From positions 1 to 35,613 of the forward strand of contig CADDZL010000005.1 in the NCBI GenBank assembly GCA_902812335.1: a DNA stretch of 35,613 bases, written 5' to 3'. Below, piece after piece: positions 20,468 to 29,564 of this stretch. The DNA is from Chloroflexota bacterium (lineage in GTDB: Bacteria; Chloroflexota; Anaerolineae; DSLN01). The notes under the pieces are model-generated. The model was not told where the DNA came from, searched no databases, and saw nothing but the letters and a program-made list of their open reading frames with translations. The position numbers were made by a program, and so were the translations under genes. Within the stretch, counting starts at the first letter, position 1. The number at the start of each line of letters is the position of its first letter.

Positions 20468-21817
20468 ATGTCGGGCCAATTCTTCTCCACAGTGTTTAGC
20501 GGCCTCCTTCTCGTCAGCCTGCTCGTGGGCGCGGTGACACAGCCTGCTCTGGCGCAGTCGGCCACCACGAACGTTGATGGCCACGGTGGACCATGGCTGC
20601 CCGAGAATTGGGCATCTGGCCCGCCGACGACGTTCCCCGGTGACGGCGCTTGGGCCCGTTTCGACGGTGAGTACTTCCCAACTGACCAGAAAGTCTACTT
20701 CCTGGGCGGCCGCGGAGCCGGCGATGCCACCTATGGTGTCGTCTACTCTTTTGATCCGGCTACAGGGGTATACGCTCCCACGGGTGCTGTCATGCCCGTG
20801 CCAGTATCGAACTACGACATCGTCCTGCTTCAAGACAATATCGGCCTGGGCATGTATGTCTTTGGTGGGCGACCCTCCGCTGGTGGCACAACCAATACAG
20901 TGCAGGTCTATTATCCGGCCACCAACACAACCGCCAACCTGACCGCAACCGACCCCTGGCCGGGGCAGGTCGGGGGCGTGTCCGTTATGCCCAACGTGGC
21001 CACATACAACAACAAAGCCTACGTCTTCGGTGGTCTCCAGGTGAGCACCCCTCCCTACGTCTCAGCCGAGACATGGCAGTTCGATCCCCTGGCGCCGGCC
21101 GGCAGCCGCTGGACCAACCTGAACCAGCCGCTCCATCTGGCCCGGGGCTATATAGCCACGGCGGTGGTAGACGCGAAAATCTACGCGATCGGCGGCGACA
21201 CCTACGACGGTGTGACGTTGACATCACGAGCAATCGTCGAGCGGCTGGATACAACCAACCTCAACGCCGGCTGGGACGATGCGGGCGTGGCCGACCTGCC
21301 ACTCCCATCTTCGGGCATGCCGGGGTGCGATGAGTCGCGGGCCTTCGGCTTCAATGCCGTCTCGCCCTACGTCGGCATGAGTGGCACCATCGTCCTGGCA
21401 GGGTGCGGCCAATATCAGGGTGGTGGCAATAGCGCCCTGCCCGATGTATTCATCTACAGTGAGTCAACCAACCTCTGGACCATCTGGCCGAGCCTGAACC
21501 AGGCCCGCCGCAACTACGCCGGCGTGCTTTATCCGATCAGCAGGCAGGGCGCAGCAGGCACACCTGGCATATGGGTTTTCGGCGGCTATCTGCCCGACGG
21601 GCACACGACGACCACCAGTGTCGAATATAACCCACTGACTCTCCTGCCCCCCCCATCATCGGTACAGCTCAGCCGCTTCAGTGCTACGTCACAAGGAGAT
21701 ACCGCCGCAGGGATAACCGACCGGCTACGGCTGGCGGTCGTGGCAGGAGGAGCACTATTGGTGGCCCTGCTGGCCACCCGGCAGCTTGCAAGGAACAGAC
21801 GGCGATCAGCCACCTGA
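20468..21817 (+). CDS. Secreted kelch-like surface protein with C-terminal membrane tail
   Basis: 449-aa protein starting at the second in-frame ATG, since the longer frame from 20420 would begin inside the promoter. The signal peptide is MSGQFFS...PALAQ (about 1-30). The body contains several kelch-type blades, seen as repeated FGG/LGG/IGG turns (VYFLGGRGAG, YVFGGRPSAG, YVFGGLQVST, YAIGGDTYDG, WVFGGYLPDG) alternating with WxFDP or YxxxT segments, giving a beta-propeller. The tail SSVQLSRFSATS (397-408) precedes a membrane helix (about 420-437) and RNRRRSAT. That tail is shared with the genes at 21928 and 24760. Ligand unknown; kelch propellers usually bind proteins or glycans, and some are oxidases, but no oxidase motif is seen. 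Confidence 0.82.
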   Translation: MSGQFFSTVFSGLLLVSLLVGAVTQPALAQSATTNVDGHGGPWLPENWASGPPTTFPGDGAWARFDGEYFPTDQKVYFLGGRGAGDATYGVVYSFDPATGVYAPTGAVMPVPVSNYDIVLLQDNIGLGMYVFGGRPSAGGTTNTVQVYYPATNTTANLTATDPWPGQVGGVSVMPNVATYNNKAYVFGGLQVSTPPYVSAETWQFDPLAPAGSRWTNLNQPLHLARGYIATAVVDAKIYAIGGDTYDGVTLTSRAIVERLDTTNLNAGWDDAGVADLPLPSSGMPGCDESRAFGFNAVSPYVGMSGTIVLAGCGQYQGGGNSALPDVFIYSESTNLWTIWPSLNQARRNYAGVLYPISRQGAAGTPGIWVFGGYLPDGHTTTTSVEYNPLTLLPPPSSVQLSRFSATSQGDTAAGITDRLRLAVVAGGALLVALLATRQLARNRRRSAT

Positions 21818-21835
21818 GATCTACAGGGGCCAACT

Positions 21836-21864
21836 TTGACGTTATCCTAGAAAGATCGTATACT
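21836..21864 (+). promoter_or_regulatory. Promoter of the mini surface protein gene
   Basis: TTGACG (21836-21841), 17 bp, TATACT (21859-21864), a strong match. The leader is about 57 nt, and GAGG lies 5 nt before the ATG at 21928. Confidence 0.75.
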
Positions 21865-21927
21865 TGAATCATAGCTCGCAGGTGTGACCACGAGGGGGCG
21901 AGCTTATCTGGCTGAGAAGAGGATATC

Positions 21928-22272
21928 ATGTCCGGGCGGTTCTTCTCCATCGCGGCCAGTCTCCTGCTGTTGGCCGCACTCCTCGCCGGGCCAGCGCTGC
22001 CGGCCCTGGCACAATTGGGCACGCCGAATAGTGATAGCCCCAGGGGCGACCTGACAGACCCTAACAGCGCCTACTTCCGCTACACGATTACCACCGAGAT
22101 TACCCCAACTGAGCCGGTAACACTGGGGCCAACCTCCGTCAGGTTGGTGAATTTTAGCGCCTCATCCGGCGAGATCACGCGGCCGTGGGCCGGGATTGTG
22201 ATAGCGGTGGCGTTCCTGGCCGGCATCGCCCTCATAGGCCTGGCGATAGGCCTGAGTCTACAGCGGACCTAG
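21928..22272 (+). CDS. Small secreted/membrane protein with the same ends as the kelch protein
   Basis: 114-aa protein of unknown function. The signal peptide MSGRFFS...PALAQ (1-29) is closely similar to that of the preceding kelch gene. The mature part is only about 40 residues (NSDSPRGDLTDPNSAYFRYT...). The tail TSVRLVNFSASS (69-80), a membrane helix (about 87-109) and LQRT end match the tails of the two kelch proteins. It thus keeps export and anchoring signals without a propeller. Own promoter and ribosome site indicate a real gene rather than decay. It may be a deletion paralogue or a small partner of the larger proteins. Confidence 0.75.
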   Translation: MSGRFFSIAASLLLLAALLAGPALPALAQLGTPNSDSPRGDLTDPNSAYFRYTITTEITPTEPVTLGPTSVRLVNFSASSGEITRPWAGIVIAVAFLAGIALIGLAIGLSLQRT

Positions 22273-22435
22273 TCCTTTACCAACTTAAATCCGTAGAGTA
22301 TGGTAAGATAGCGGCATGAGCACACCGCTGGCTGACGAACACTTTTAACCCTGTTAGCAACGGATAGGCACATCAGTCGCAACTTCTGTCCAACTGCGCA
22401 CATGTTTGGGCAAGACCGGCTCTGGGTCTGACTGA
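22273..22435. other. Non-coding stretch after the mini protein
   Basis: No gene is recognised. On the minus strand the bases around 22333-22345 (TTAAAAGTGT, encoding VKSVR in one frame) resemble the end of the IS4-type remnant at 32534 (ALKSVRW), so this may be the distal end of the same element as 22436-22621. Weak evidence. Confidence 0.3.
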
Positions 22436-22621
22436 CTATCCAACTGACATGACACGCCCCCGGTAGATCAGACTTACCCGCACAATAACTAGGCGACCGG
22501 CCAGGGGAGTGATATCAATTGCCAGATAGAGGATACGACCGGTCCCAGCGGACAGCGCCGCCTGGATGAAGGGCTGGTACAGACCACAGGTGACGATAAC
22601 CTGGCTGTTGTAAGCCCGCCG
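22436..22621 (-). pseudogene. IS4-type transposase fragment (N-proximal part)
   Basis: The minus-strand frame encodes about 61 residues including GLYQPFIQAALSAGTGRILYL, then AIDITPLAGRLVIVRVSLIYRGR, closed by TAG at 22436. The pattern YxPfIqAAL, then LaxDtt, then vRvSLIYRGRavPL is that of IS4-family transposases just around the first catalytic Asp (D in AIDIT). A stop precedes the fragment and the rest of the gene is missing, so it is a dead remnant. It sits between the mini surface protein and the ROK kinase. Confidence 0.6.
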
Positions 22622-22690
22622 TCACGGGCGTCTGCAGCATCTTGGCTATTGACGACCTGGCAGCCGCCCTTGAGCGATCGCACTCCATTG

Positions 22691-23653
22691 CTAATGTGGA
22701 GCACCGATGGATTCGAGAGCGAGCGCTAGAGCGCCGAGCAACCCAACGTCGTCGCCCAGCGCGGCCGGGACGATGGGAGTGCGTTGCCAGTAGATGGGGT
22801 TCATGGCCAGTTCGCGCACGCGCGCCCGCACCGGCTCGAAGAGCAAGTCGCCGAGTTGCGACACGCCCCCGCCGAGGATGACGATTGACGGGTTGAAGAG
22901 GTGCAACAGCGTCACGATGCCCTGGCCGATATAGCGCCCCGCCTGTGTGACCAGGCCCCGCGCCACGGGGTCTCCCGCCAACGCTGCCCGACCTACGGTC
23001 TCCCCAGTCACTTGGGCGGGATCACCGCCGGCCAGTTGGGCAATGGTTGGCGCCTGACCGGTTCGAACGAGCGCAGCAGCCTCGCGCCCCAGGGCCGTGC
23101 CGGAGGCCAGTGATTCCAGGCAGCCGTGGCTGCCACAACCACAAAGCGGGCCATCGGGCACGAGGATCATGTGCCCCACTTCGGCCCCCAACCCATCCTG
23201 GCCCAAGACCATCCGGCCGCCGCTGATGATGCCACCACCGATGCCGGTGCTGATGGTCATATAGATGAGATCGTCGCAGCCCCGACCGGCACCGAAGCGG
23301 CGCTCGCCCAGGCCGGCCAGGTTGGCGTCATTGCCGACGTAGACCGGCCGGTTAAAGTGGGTGGCGATCAGGTCGCGCAAGGGGACATCAACCCAGCCAG
23401 GCATGTTCGGGGCATCAATAATAACACCGGTGTAGGGGTTGAGTGGGCCAGGAACGGCCAGGCTGATGGCGGCGACGTCGCTGGGGTCCTGCGGCATCAC
23501 GCTGGCGATCAGGTCGTACAGCCGTCTCAGGACGGCATCGCGTCCCTCGGCGGCGTGGGTCGGTACAACGGCGCGTTGGAGCATCTGGGCGTCAGGGGTA
23601 AAGCGCGCCGCCCGCAGATGGGTACCACCGATGTCAACGCTGATGATGACCAG
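22691..23653 (-). CDS. ROK-family sugar kinase (glucokinase-like), apparent CTG start
   Basis: ROK kinase without an HTH, probably glucokinase. The first ATG (23584) would remove the essential phosphate loop. The frame continues upstream and encodes SVDIGGTHLRAARFTPD, so the start must lie between that and the moaA stop. No ATG, GTG or TTG exists there in frame. CTG at 23653, 6 nt after GGGGG, is the only good candidate, giving 320 aa. Other landmarks are the catalytic Asp in VGNDANLAGLGE, the ROK zinc site EVGHM with CGCGSHGCLES, and STGIGGGII for sugar/phosphate binding. It follows moaA by two bases. The sugar is inferred from family only. Confidence 0.85.
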   Translation of the reverse strand: MVIISVDIGGTHLRAARFTPDAQMLQRAVVPTHAAEGRDAVLRRLYDLIASVMPQDPSDVAAISLAVPGPLNPYTGVIIDAPNMPGWVDVPLRDLIATHFNRPVYVGNDANLAGLGERRFGAGRGCDDLIYMTISTGIGGGIISGGRMVLGQDGLGAEVGHMILVPDGPLCGCGSHGCLESLASGTALGREAAALVRTGQAPTIAQLAGGDPAQVTGETVGRAALAGDPVARGLVTQAGRYIGQGIVTLLHLFNPSIVILGGGVSQLGDLLFEPVRARVRELAMNPIYWQRTPIVPAALGDDVGLLGALALALESIGAPH

Positions 23654-23655
23654 GG

Positions 23656-24636
23656 CTAACCCCCGATCTGTGACATGACCCGTTCCAGCGGGATAACGTC
23701 CTGGGCCAGGCCGTGTCCCCAGGGCTTGTGCCAGACACCGTCGCGAATGAGCGCCTTAATGTCGTCAACGGATGCGCCCTGACGCAACGGGGTGAGCAAG
23801 TCCACTTCTTTGTCGCGCAGCAGGCACAGCCGCAAGTGGCCGTCGGCGGTGAGCCGCGCGCGGCTGCAACTGGCGCAGAAGGGCTGAGTGACCGAGCTGA
23901 TGAAGCCCAGGGTGCCGACGCCATCCGGCAGGCGATAGAGGCGGGCCTCGCCATCCAAACGACCCCCATCTACCGGCTCAAGCGGCCCCAACGCGGCCGC
24001 GATACGGTCCATCATCTCTTGAGCCGTGACCACCGCCGACTGAGCGAATTCAGCCACATCGCCAAAGGGCATCATCTCAATGAAGCGTACCTGCCAGTCA
24101 TGATAAAGGGTCAACTGGGCCAGGTCCACGACATCCTCTTCGTTGTAGCCACGCACGACCACAGCGTTGAGTTTGATCGGTCCTAAACTGGCGGCCTCGG
24201 CCGCCTCGACGCCGGCCCACACATCCTCCAGTTCGCCCCAGCGGGTGATGCGCTTGAACTTGGCCGGATTAAGCGTGTCCACACTGATGTTGACGCGCAG
24301 GAGACCGGCCTGCTTGAGGGGACGGGCCAGCTTGCGCAGGAGTACACCATTGGTGGTCATGGCGACCTGGCGGATGCCGGGGGTGTGGGCAATAGTGTGG
24401 ACAATCTCGACAATGTTGGCGCGGACGGTCGGCTCGCCGCCGGTCAGGCGGATTTTATCGAAACCCAGGTCGGCGAAGGCGCGGACGAGCAGGAATACCT
24501 CCTCGTCCTGCATTAATTCCCGACGCGGCCGGAACGTCATATCCTCCGGCATACAATAGACGCAGCGTAGATTACAGCGGTCGGTAAGCGACACGCGCAG
24601 GTAGTGGATATCGCGTCCAAAGCGGTCGAGGGCCAT
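23656..24636 (-). CDS. moaA: GTP 3',8-cyclase MoaA (molybdenum cofactor synthesis)
   Basis: 326-aa radical SAM enzyme catalysing the first step of molybdopterin synthesis from GTP. The N-terminal cluster is C21-x3-C25-x2-C28 in DRCNLRCVYCMP, and the C-terminal cluster is CASCSRARLTADGHLRLC, with the conserved RxR in SRARL. The protein ends in Gly-Gly (SQIGG), the tail needed for activity in this family. No other moa gene is in the window. The promoter is so close that the transcript should be leaderless. The codons for the Gly-Gly tail form the GGGGG that precedes the CTG of the next gene. Confidence 0.96.
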   Translation of the reverse strand: MALDRFGRDIHYLRVSLTDRCNLRCVYCMPEDMTFRPRRELMQDEEVFLLVRAFADLGFDKIRLTGGEPTVRANIVEIVHTIAHTPGIRQVAMTTNGVLLRKLARPLKQAGLLRVNISVDTLNPAKFKRITRWGELEDVWAGVEAAEAASLGPIKLNAVVVRGYNEEDVVDLAQLTLYHDWQVRFIEMMPFGDVAEFAQSAVVTAQEMMDRIAAALGPLEPVDGGRLDGEARLYRLPDGVGTLGFISSVTQPFCASCSRARLTADGHLRLCLLRDKEVDLLTPLRQGASVDDIKALIRDGVWHKPWGHGLAQDVIPLERVMSQIGG

Positions 24637-24644
24637 ATAGTATC

Positions 24645-24673
24645 ATTCTAGCACCCGGCGGGACATTTGTCAA
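24645..24673 (-). promoter_or_regulatory. Promoter of moaA, giving a leaderless mRNA
   Basis: On the minus strand TTGACA (24668-24673), 17 bp, TAGAAT (24645-24650), with TGC just before the -10 (extended -10). Only 8 nt separate the -10 from the ATG (24636), so transcription should start within about two bases of the start codon. No Shine-Dalgarno. Confidence 0.85.
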
Positions 24674-24759
24674 CTGACGATCTTGTTTATTCGAGCAAGA
24701 CAAATCGGGGCGCAATAGGCGGGTGCCCTTGCGCCCATGCCTGCCCTCCCTGGATGAGA

Positions 24760-26019
24760 TCAGGTGCGCTTGCGCAAGACGAGCCAGCCTAGGGACAGGA
24801 TCACTACCGCTGGTGTCAGCCACAATACGACCTGTGGCCAGAGCTGCTCGGTTGTGCCGCTACCCTCGAACGTAGTCAGTTCGACCGAGGTAGCCGCAGT
24901 GGGAGTGGGCGATGGCGTGCTGGTGGGCGTCGCCGAGCCGGTCGGCGTCGGTGTGGGCGTGGCGGCGGTGACAAAGCGCTCCGCCGAGGTCAGACATCTG
25001 CCTGCCCAGCCACCTGCCGCGTATAACGCGTTGTCGGTTTCGTCCGAAGCATAGGCAAACGACCGGCGCGCCTGATTCAGGTAGGCGGCGGTGCTGTTCC
25101 ATGTCCCTGTCGTGCCCTGTAATGTGTCATAGGACTCGCAGGTGTTATAAGGCTGTGTCCAACCGCCCCCACATACCAAGAGCAGGGTACCGTTCAGCAG
25201 ATAAGCGCCGGAGCCGCCACGTGCCAGAGACATCGGGTTTGTGAATAGCGTCCAGGCATTCGTTGTCGGGTCGTAAACCTCGACCGAGTCCTTTTCATCG
25301 GATATTCCTCCCGTGCCCAAACCGCCCGCCACGTAGAACCTGTCCCCGATGGCCACACCACCAGCGTAGGTCCGTGCGATGTTCATGGGCGGCAGAGCCG
25401 TCCAGCGTGAGCCGGCCGGTGCTGCCGGGTCGTAGACATAGGCTGCTGGGCTGGCCCTGCCAGTGGTCGAGCCGCCAGCGATATAGAGCTTGCCGCCCAC
25501 CACGCCGCAGGTTTGCCCCCACATCGCCGTCGGGACCGGGTCGGTGGTCACCGTGGACCAGGTCAGGGTGGTGGCGTCCAGCACCTCCAGCCGATCGGTA
25601 CCGGATGAGTCATTGCCGGTCTGGCCGGCCGGAACGTAGATGTGGTTGCCAATGACGCCGGCGCACGTGTTGATCACATTGGTGGGCTTATCATGGGGGC
25701 CTATGCTCCAGGAGTCAGTTTCGGGATCGTAGATTTGCACGACACCGGTCAACTCGCCACCGATCCCCTCGCCGGAGATGAGGAAGAACTTGCCATTGGC
25801 GAACGCGCCGGGAGCCAGCATGACAGGCGTCGGCATGGGCTGGATGAATTGCCATTGACCCGGCTGAGATGGGGTTGCGGTGGGTGTGGGGCTATTCGTT
25901 CCGTTGGCCCTATCGGCGACCGCGGAGCCAGGTCGGTCGGCTGCTGCGGGCAGGATGGCGAAAAGCGCGACCAGGATCATGGCTGCCACACAGGCAGTAG
26001 CCAGTCGCTTGTTGATCAT
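24760..26019 (-). CDS. Secreted kelch-repeat protein with C-terminal membrane tail
   Basis: 419-aa exported protein. Signal peptide/helix (about 8-27) is followed by a Thr/Pro linker. Kelch blades are visible as KFFLISGEGIGG, HIYVPAGQTGN, KLYIAGGSTTG, RFYVAGGLGTGG, TLLLVCGGGW and ALYAAGGWAG, alternating with VYDPxTxxW segments; six repeats make one propeller. A second Thr/Pro-rich linker (about 353-375) leads to TSVELTTFEGSG (377-388), a membrane helix (about 395-414) and RKRT. A GGAGG sits 8 nt upstream of the ATG. Probably displayed on the cell surface on a flexible stalk. Ligand unknown. Confidence 0.85.
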   Translation of the reverse strand: MINKRLATACVAAMILVALFAILPAAADRPGSAVADRANGTNSPTPTATPSQPGQWQFIQPMPTPVMLAPGAFANGKFFLISGEGIGGELTGVVQIYDPETDSWSIGPHDKPTNVINTCAGVIGNHIYVPAGQTGNDSSGTDRLEVLDATTLTWSTVTTDPVPTAMWGQTCGVVGGKLYIAGGSTTGRASPAAYVYDPAAPAGSRWTALPPMNIARTYAGGVAIGDRFYVAGGLGTGGISDEKDSVEVYDPTTNAWTLFTNPMSLARGGSGAYLLNGTLLLVCGGGWTQPYNTCESYDTLQGTTGTWNSTAAYLNQARRSFAYASDETDNALYAAGGWAGRCLTSAERFVTAATPTPTPTGSATPTSTPSPTPTAATSVELTTFEGSGTTEQLWPQVVLWLTPAVVILSLGWLVLRKRT

Positions 26020-28823: not shown

Positions 28824-29564
28824 ATGTGGTTATCCCTGTTTTGGCTACTGCTGACGCTATTGCCCCTGTTGGCCTTCGAACGTTGGTTGCGCCAGCATCT
28901 GTTTGGGCTGGGACTGATCCTGAGCGGCAGCCTGCAGGTTGCTGAATTTATCTATTTCCTGGTGTTACTGCCGGGCGTCGTGATACATGAACTGAGCCAT
29001 TGGCTGGCTGCCTGGCTTCTGGGCGTGCCGACCGGCCACGTTTCGGTTTGGCCGGCGCGGCAGCGCGATGGCAGCTTACGCCTGGGCTATGTCGAGACCG
29101 GGAACGCGGGTCCGCTGCGAGAGGCGCTGATCGGCGTAGCGCCCCTGTTCAGCGGCGCCCTGCTGGTCCTGCTCATCGGCGAGCGGGCTTTGGGCGTCGC
29201 CAATCTGGGTATGGCGCTGGTGGCCGGTGACCTGGCCGGTGTGCTGCGCGGGTTGGCCGGAGCGCTGCAGGCGCCGGATGTGTGGCTGTGGCTGTATCTG
29301 ATTTTCGCCCTGGCGAACGCGATGTTGCCCAGCCCCTCTGATCGGCGCGCCTGGCCGCTGGCCGTTCTGGCCGGGTCGGGAGCGGCTGGCGCTCTGGCTC
29401 TGGCCGGTCTTGCGGCCGGTCTGGCCGAGCTGGCCGCTGCTGCGCTGCGCTCGCTGGCAGCGGCTTTCACGTTCGCGATTGCTGCTGATGGGGTAGTAGT
29501 CGTGGTGGTGTGGCTCGCCGAGGCCGTTTTGGGGCGGTTACTGCCACGGCAGGTTGAGCATTGA
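28824..29564 (+). CDS. M50-like membrane zinc metalloprotease
   Basis: 246-aa polytopic protein with about five to six hydrophobic helices. The zinc motif HELSH (H55, E56, H59) lies at the end of the helix FIYFLVLLPGVVIHELSHWLAAWLLG, as in site-2-protease-related membrane peptidases. The usual downstream NPDG metal motif is not evident, so the third ligand is uncertain. The C-terminal half is an Ala/Leu-rich set of helices. It starts 56 nt after tpiA. Substrate unknown; it may also be an inactive transporter-like relative. Confidence 0.65.
   Translation: MWLSLFWLLLTLLPLLAFERWLRQHLFGLGLILSGSLQVAEFIYFLVLLPGVVIHELSHWLAAWLLGVPTGHVSVWPARQRDGSLRLGYVETGNAGPLREALIGVAPLFSGALLVLLIGERALGVANLGMALVAGDLAGVLRGLAGALQAPDVWLWLYLIFALANAMLPSPSDRRAWPLAVLAGSGAAGALALAGLAAGLAELAAAALRSLAAAFTFAIAADGVVVVVVWLAEAVLGRLLPRQVEH

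Follow-up and report, generated by a model that had tools for sequence, protein, structure and literature searches.

Across the bacterial class to which the analysed Chloroflexota genome belongs, exported proteins with different bodies were found to share a C-terminal tail composed of an 11-residue motif, a linker, a single membrane helix and a basic end. The tail is confined to the C-terminus, is spread across the class and occurs independently of the body that carries it; no enzyme family tested was co-distributed with it. We consider it probable (about 0.6) that the tail is a lineage-specific three-part surface-anchoring signal recognised by a partner.

Three neighbouring proteins share a C-terminal tail

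In the window (the whole stretch of DNA analysed, 35,613 nucleotides), the initial annotation had reported a common C-terminal tail on two kelch proteins and a 114-aa protein; we found the tail where it had been placed, and the likeness exceeded chance expectation. Kelch protein 1 (20468..21817, plus strand; ATG at 20468 read) and kelch protein 2 (24760..26019, minus strand), both supported by the ORF list and by Pfam kelch matches, begin with a signal-like N-terminus that leads into the kelch body and end with the tail, which in kelch protein 2 follows a Pro/Thr-rich linker. The 114-aa protein (21928..22272, plus strand; ORF list) consists of a signal-like N-terminus, a short linker and the tail, and a search for a domain in Pfam and NCBIfam returned 0 matches. 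Pattern and profile matches located the 11-mer motif at 21653..21685 on the plus strand in kelch protein 1 (PSSVQLSRFSA, SSVQLSRFSATS), at 22129..22161 on the plus strand in the 114-aa protein (PTSVRLVNFSA, TSVRLVNFSASS) and at 24862..24894 on the minus strand in kelch protein 2 (ATSVELTTFEG, TSVELTTFEGSG). In all three translations the 11-mer is followed by a linker, a single hydrophobic helix and a basic end. The helix of kelch protein 1 covers approximately 21731-21778, with limits estimated from hydrophobicity, and its basic end 21779-21805 (together 21731..21805, plus strand). Helix and basic end together occupy an estimated 22186..22269 (plus strand) in the 114-aa protein, whose short end (QRT) contains one Arg only, and an estimated 24763..24843 (minus strand; RKRT) in kelch protein 2. 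The latter lies on the opposite strand from the other two tail proteins, with two other reading frames in between. The tail was unrecognised by Pfam and NCBIfam in all three proteins.

The view that the carriers were otherwise unrelated held for the 114-aa body, the only truly different one, and failed for the kelch pair, whose bodies are related to each other at 29% identity (E=1.5e-10). Recent copying of one gene was rejected as the source of the tails, the DNA similarity among them not being meaningful. The signal peptides of the 114-aa protein (21928-22050) and kelch protein 1 (20468-20590) are weakly alike (46% over 41 aa, MSG[QR]FFS...), and the 114-aa protein may therefore be a copy of the kelch gene minus its body. 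Reading of the sequences showed hydrophobic, signal-like N-termini on these three proteins and also on the six carriers found in the two-genome sample described below.

The tail recurs as a suffix across the class

A whole-genome pattern scan, read back into protein, revealed a fourth tail protein in this genome, a kelch protein on contig C182 (TAVKLARFEGQNESSGPPLWLLAGGAAALGLGRWLQRRRTRAL); a profile built from the four tails found no fifth, leaving n=4 proteins with the full tail build. Profiles grown in two steps, followed by extraction of the loci, yielded 99 distinct tails, nearly all from relatives in the same class. Scarcity of the tail, which would have spoken against a sorting signal, was thus true of this genome with its four proteins and untrue of the class. 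The consensus of the 99 tails reads P-T-A-V-x-L-x-x-[FL]-x-A, after which come 3-17 linker residues, a single membrane helix and an end rich in Arg; P was found in 90, T in 91, A in 87, V in 87, L in 86 and the last A in 76 tails, frequencies that are partly built in because the tails were selected by profile. The distance from motif start to C-terminus was 38-57 residues (median 44), the best 18-residue helix window began 3-17 residues (median 9) past the motif, and at least two R/K residues were present in 97 of the 99 ends.

The 11-mer is conserved between near-random neighbours: mean pairwise identity reached 54% within it and fell to 8% over the preceding 11 residues and 12% over the following 11. 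Pfam assigned carrier bodies to kelch, subtilase, pullulanase-type C-terminal domain, GEVED, MG2 and carboxypeptidase-regulatory-like families, and several carriers had a body without any Pfam match. Many carriers were therefore homologous in the tail only, as also seen from the 8% identity of the preceding flank, and the differing bodies mark the tail as a suffix rather than a component of any single family. The 99 tails showed the order of motif, membrane helix and C-terminal basic cluster. The three-part build proposed in the initial annotation was borne out class-wide, being confined to the C-termini of differing exported proteins.

Among the matches listed, down to about E=3e-4, tails occurred in at least approximately 32 of the 120 class genomes and in 16 families; G059 was dropped from this count because its match sits inside a multi-pass protein. 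A tally of 70 of 120 genomes at E<=0.02 includes helix-only matches and is unfit for use. Most matches in one genome were found in G084 (22 at E<=0.02, draft genome), and G093 had 17. A phylum-wide sample of 201 genomes contained a single genome outside the class with real tails (G258); the remaining outside matches were helix-only, some of them LPXTG-like (LPTTGGEE, LPATSEG). A degenerate DNA pattern run against the named genome collection matched mostly unrelated phyla, and none of these matches was a tail by frame and length. LPXTG-like tails (LPTTGGEE, LPSTATG, LPATSEG, LPSPGSS) were observed in other phylum members (loci L391, L393 and L399) and in G117 (C40:101939-103499), where such a tail stands beside PTAV tails, so that two kinds of C-terminal tail coexist.

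Motif matches are not explained by chance or profile bias

As a decoy, the first 11-12 residues of each alignment row were reversed and the same 120 genomes were searched. Nearly all decoy matches started past the motif, and 1 among the matches listed started in the first four positions, versus all but one of the matches listed for the true model. Matches at E 0.001-0.02 with the decoy were often to the helix only; E-value alone was rejected as a tail criterion, and a match was therefore required to start within the motif. A profile-free test drew on 661 proteins predicted from 730 kb belonging to two other genomes. They contained the strict motif 6 times, in 6 of 6 cases within 60 residues of the C-terminus, although the last 60 residues make up 14.6% of positions (p about 1e-5); the expected number was 0.15 anywhere and 0.023 within the last 60 residues. 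Fourteen proteins of this sample combined a signal-like N-terminus with one helix at the C-terminus and a basic end, and six of them carried the motif. Both genomes had been picked as tail-rich, which makes this frequency not general and leaves the location test unaffected.

The motif resembles the first strand of an FN3-like domain

A near-identical 11-mer, P[LT]AVxLAxFxA, opens an FN3-like domain of the class, where it is followed by VxVxWxTxSExxNxGFNxYRS. The domain is common in secreted proteins of the class (L300, L314, L330, L344 and others) and has a predicted FN3 fold and no Pfam model; a Pfam search gave no match, nor did a sequence search of the PDB with the single example tried. The structure predicted for it with 12 related sequences as input (mean pLDDT 88) is a sandwich of seven strands in which the first 11-mer forms strand A (residues 4-13). 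In a Foldseek search the best-matching solved structures included FNIII domains and an Fn3-like protein, at modest scores. The second, standalone copy of the motif, between domain and helix, was modelled strandless with a pLDDT of about 53-70. The tail directly followed the FN3-like domain in 11 of the 14 domains found, a fraction biased upward because the loci were gathered by tail.

The tails contain the strand-A 11-mer only, with neither the seven-strand sandwich nor the B-strand Trp that lies past strand A. Their residue preferences also differ, tails favouring T at position 5 and S at 7-8 and domain strands A at 7, and the two-genome sample contained no motif followed by the FN3-like domain, though tails were present. 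The possibility that the motif belongs to an ordinary FN3-like domain was thus correct as to the identity of the first strand and incorrect in that the tails carry this strand alone. The likeness makes a structural origin plausible, and tail motif and FN3 strand A are probably of common origin; the motif has been retained by itself at the C-termini of proteins that lack the domain. A separate FN3-like-domain protein, encoded on the minus strand of locus L062, ends in QILFIPLMIR without a membrane helix and is perhaps another C-terminal ending in the class.

Five tested enzyme families do not follow the tail

Among the 120 class genomes we compared 33 with tails (G059 included) to 87 others. 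None of five families tested (exosortase, sortase, the HELSH protein, rhomboid and CPBP) was co-distributed with the tails, and the co-occurring membrane protease or transpeptidase that a sorting system had led one to expect did not emerge from them. Exosortase (PF09721) was detected in 40 genomes (15/33 with tails vs 25/87 others, p=0.09), with no match at E<=1e-5 in the present genome. Sortase (PF04203) was present in 109 genomes, including two copies in this one, and showed no association with tails (p=0.29); in G093, a genome with 17 tail matches, none reached E<=1e-5. Rhomboid (PF01694) was encoded by 105 genomes and undetected in the tail-rich G107 and G038, while CPBP (PF02517) was encoded by 118. 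Draft genomes may hide genes, and single absences are therefore inconclusive. Exosortase, sortase, rhomboid and CPBP were rejected as the tail enzyme for want of any useful association; a CPBP subfamily or a wholly different family is a possible candidate. BLASTP clustering of the regions around tails (20 loci and the window) gave one recurring family, an apparent response regulator by sequence, and no other gene recurring beside tails.

The HELSH membrane protein of the window (28824..29564, plus strand) has HExxH in a membrane setting and a weak PF02163 match (E=0.11), with no Pfam match above cut-off. It is single-copy in 106/120 class genomes (31-47% identity for most), and represents an unnamed, conserved metalloprotease-like membrane family of the class. 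It occurs in 30/33 genomes with tails vs 76/87 without (Fisher p=0.76), and was not found in G084, the draft genome with 22 tail matches.

Alternative explanations

That profile searches merely gathered helices with a coincidentally similar motif would fit the many helix-only matches at E 0.001-0.05 and the one listed match inside a multi-pass protein (G059); the decoy control, the profile-free location test and the identity contrast contradict it and reduce its probability to almost nothing. Cleavage of the tails by the HELSH metalloprotease, the candidate named in the initial annotation, drew on its position within 3 kb of kelch protein 2 and on its HExxH in a membrane setting. As a near-universal single-copy core gene it is present irrespective of tails, it is not recurrent beside other tails, and it was not found in G084 (a draft) despite the many tails there, all of which makes this role very improbable. 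Most of these genomes encode sortases, and the tails could instead be non-canonical signals for them, given the same overall build as in LPXTG tails, the two copies here and the LPXTG models that match the helix-plus-Arg part. We regard this as unlikely: an LPXTG-like pentapeptide is absent from the tails, sortase presence fails to separate genomes with and without tails, G093 lacks a sortase detectable at the cut-off, and one genome holds an LPSPG tail beside PTAV tails.

A more serious alternative is an ordinary C-terminal membrane anchor, its outer segment being a leftover FN3 strand that domain shuffling distributed and that no partner recognises. The near identity of the 11-mer to the first FN3-like strand, the strand-A position of the first copy in the predicted model, the domain often directly ahead of the tail (11/14) and the empty enzyme search all agree with it. 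However, kelch, GEVED and other proteins bear tails in the absence of the domain, the strand persists in 16 families between near-random flanks with the rest of the domain gone, its preferences differ from those of the domain strands, and the two-genome sample has tails and no motif-plus-domain. A partnerless anchor is thus conceivable, but we doubt it. A signal recognised by a partner is the reading that we prefer.

Proposed mechanism and implications

In the mechanism that we propose, the carrier would be exported through its signal peptide, and the C-terminal helix and Arg-rich end would stop transfer and hold the protein in the membrane with the body outside, as expected from the positive-inside rule. 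The 11-residue strand PTAVxLxxFxA would then lie outside the membrane on a flexible linker, where a class-specific envelope partner would recognise it; such recognition is suggested because the 11-mer is conserved amid near-random neighbours. A processing or transpeptidation enzyme would be a likelier partner than a cell-surface docking protein, and cleavage of the tail is possible. More tentatively, the tail might be the substrate signal of a new class-specific sorting or transpeptidation system, neither sortase, exosortase nor rhombosortase, with an enzyme that reads the FN3-strand-A-like 11-mer.

The LPXTG, PEP-CTERM, GlyGly-CTERM and MYXO-CTERM tails each led to a membrane-associated enzyme for surface display. 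With subtilases, glycosidases, kelch and GEVED proteins bearing a distinct tail that no known enzyme matches, the class may possess a surface-display route of its own, and the tail may point to a mode of surface attachment not yet described. From the tail model alone, part of the surface proteome can be predicted in these genomes, and the model also offers a clean profile for an enzyme search.

Comparison with known C-terminal sorting signals

Published three-part sorting signals consist of a motif, a helix and a basic end at the C-terminus (PMC1569441, PMC3237569, PMC11980579), and the tail conforms to this build. No NCBIfam (June 2026) or Pfam model covers the present motif. The NCBIfam models LPXTG, GVDTG, LAVTG, LAETG and MYXO-CTERM match some tails weakly, and in the ten matches examined the alignment begins past the motif core (PTAVxLxxF) and spans the linker, helix and Arg part, through which alone several LPXTG-model matches exceed the cut-off. 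The comparison upheld the original impression that the motif differs from all catalogued signals; in the literature searched, the string PTAVTL was not found, nor anything linking this group to such a tail.

The tail is similar to the LPXTG signal (TIGR01167) of sortases in its C-terminal place, motif-helix-basic end order and exported carriers, but its motif is 11 residues long, strand-like and without an LPXTG-like pentapeptide in the consensus, and one tail-rich genome has no detectable sortase. It has in common with the PEP-CTERM/exosortase system the build, the many unrelated carriers per genome and the patchy distribution. Unlike PEP-CTERM, it has no PEP motif, and no exosortase was detected in this genome or in many tail-rich ones; moreover, the PEP motif sits at the membrane interface, whereas the tail motif is set back by a variable 3-17 residues from the helix. 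The Arg-rich end and build are those of MYXO-CTERM (TIGR03901) and its CPBP-family myxosortase; in contrast, the invariant motif Cys is absent and the 99 tails contain no conserved Cys. GlyGly-CTERM and rhombosortase offer the same build and suffix-like occurrence, yet the tail consensus lacks a Gly-rich motif by the helix, and no rhomboid was detected in G107 and G038. The motif itself and the missing enzyme therefore place the tails outside the LPXTG, PEP-CTERM, MYXO-CTERM and GlyGly-CTERM classes. The 11-mer is nearly identical to strand A of the FN3-like domain of the class, but in the tails the linker and helix come directly after it and the rest of the domain is missing. The overall build is already known; relative to NCBIfam (June 2026), Pfam and the literature searched, the novelty lies in the motif, which is of strand-like length, stands off from the membrane and is akin to FN3 strand A, and in the missing enzyme.
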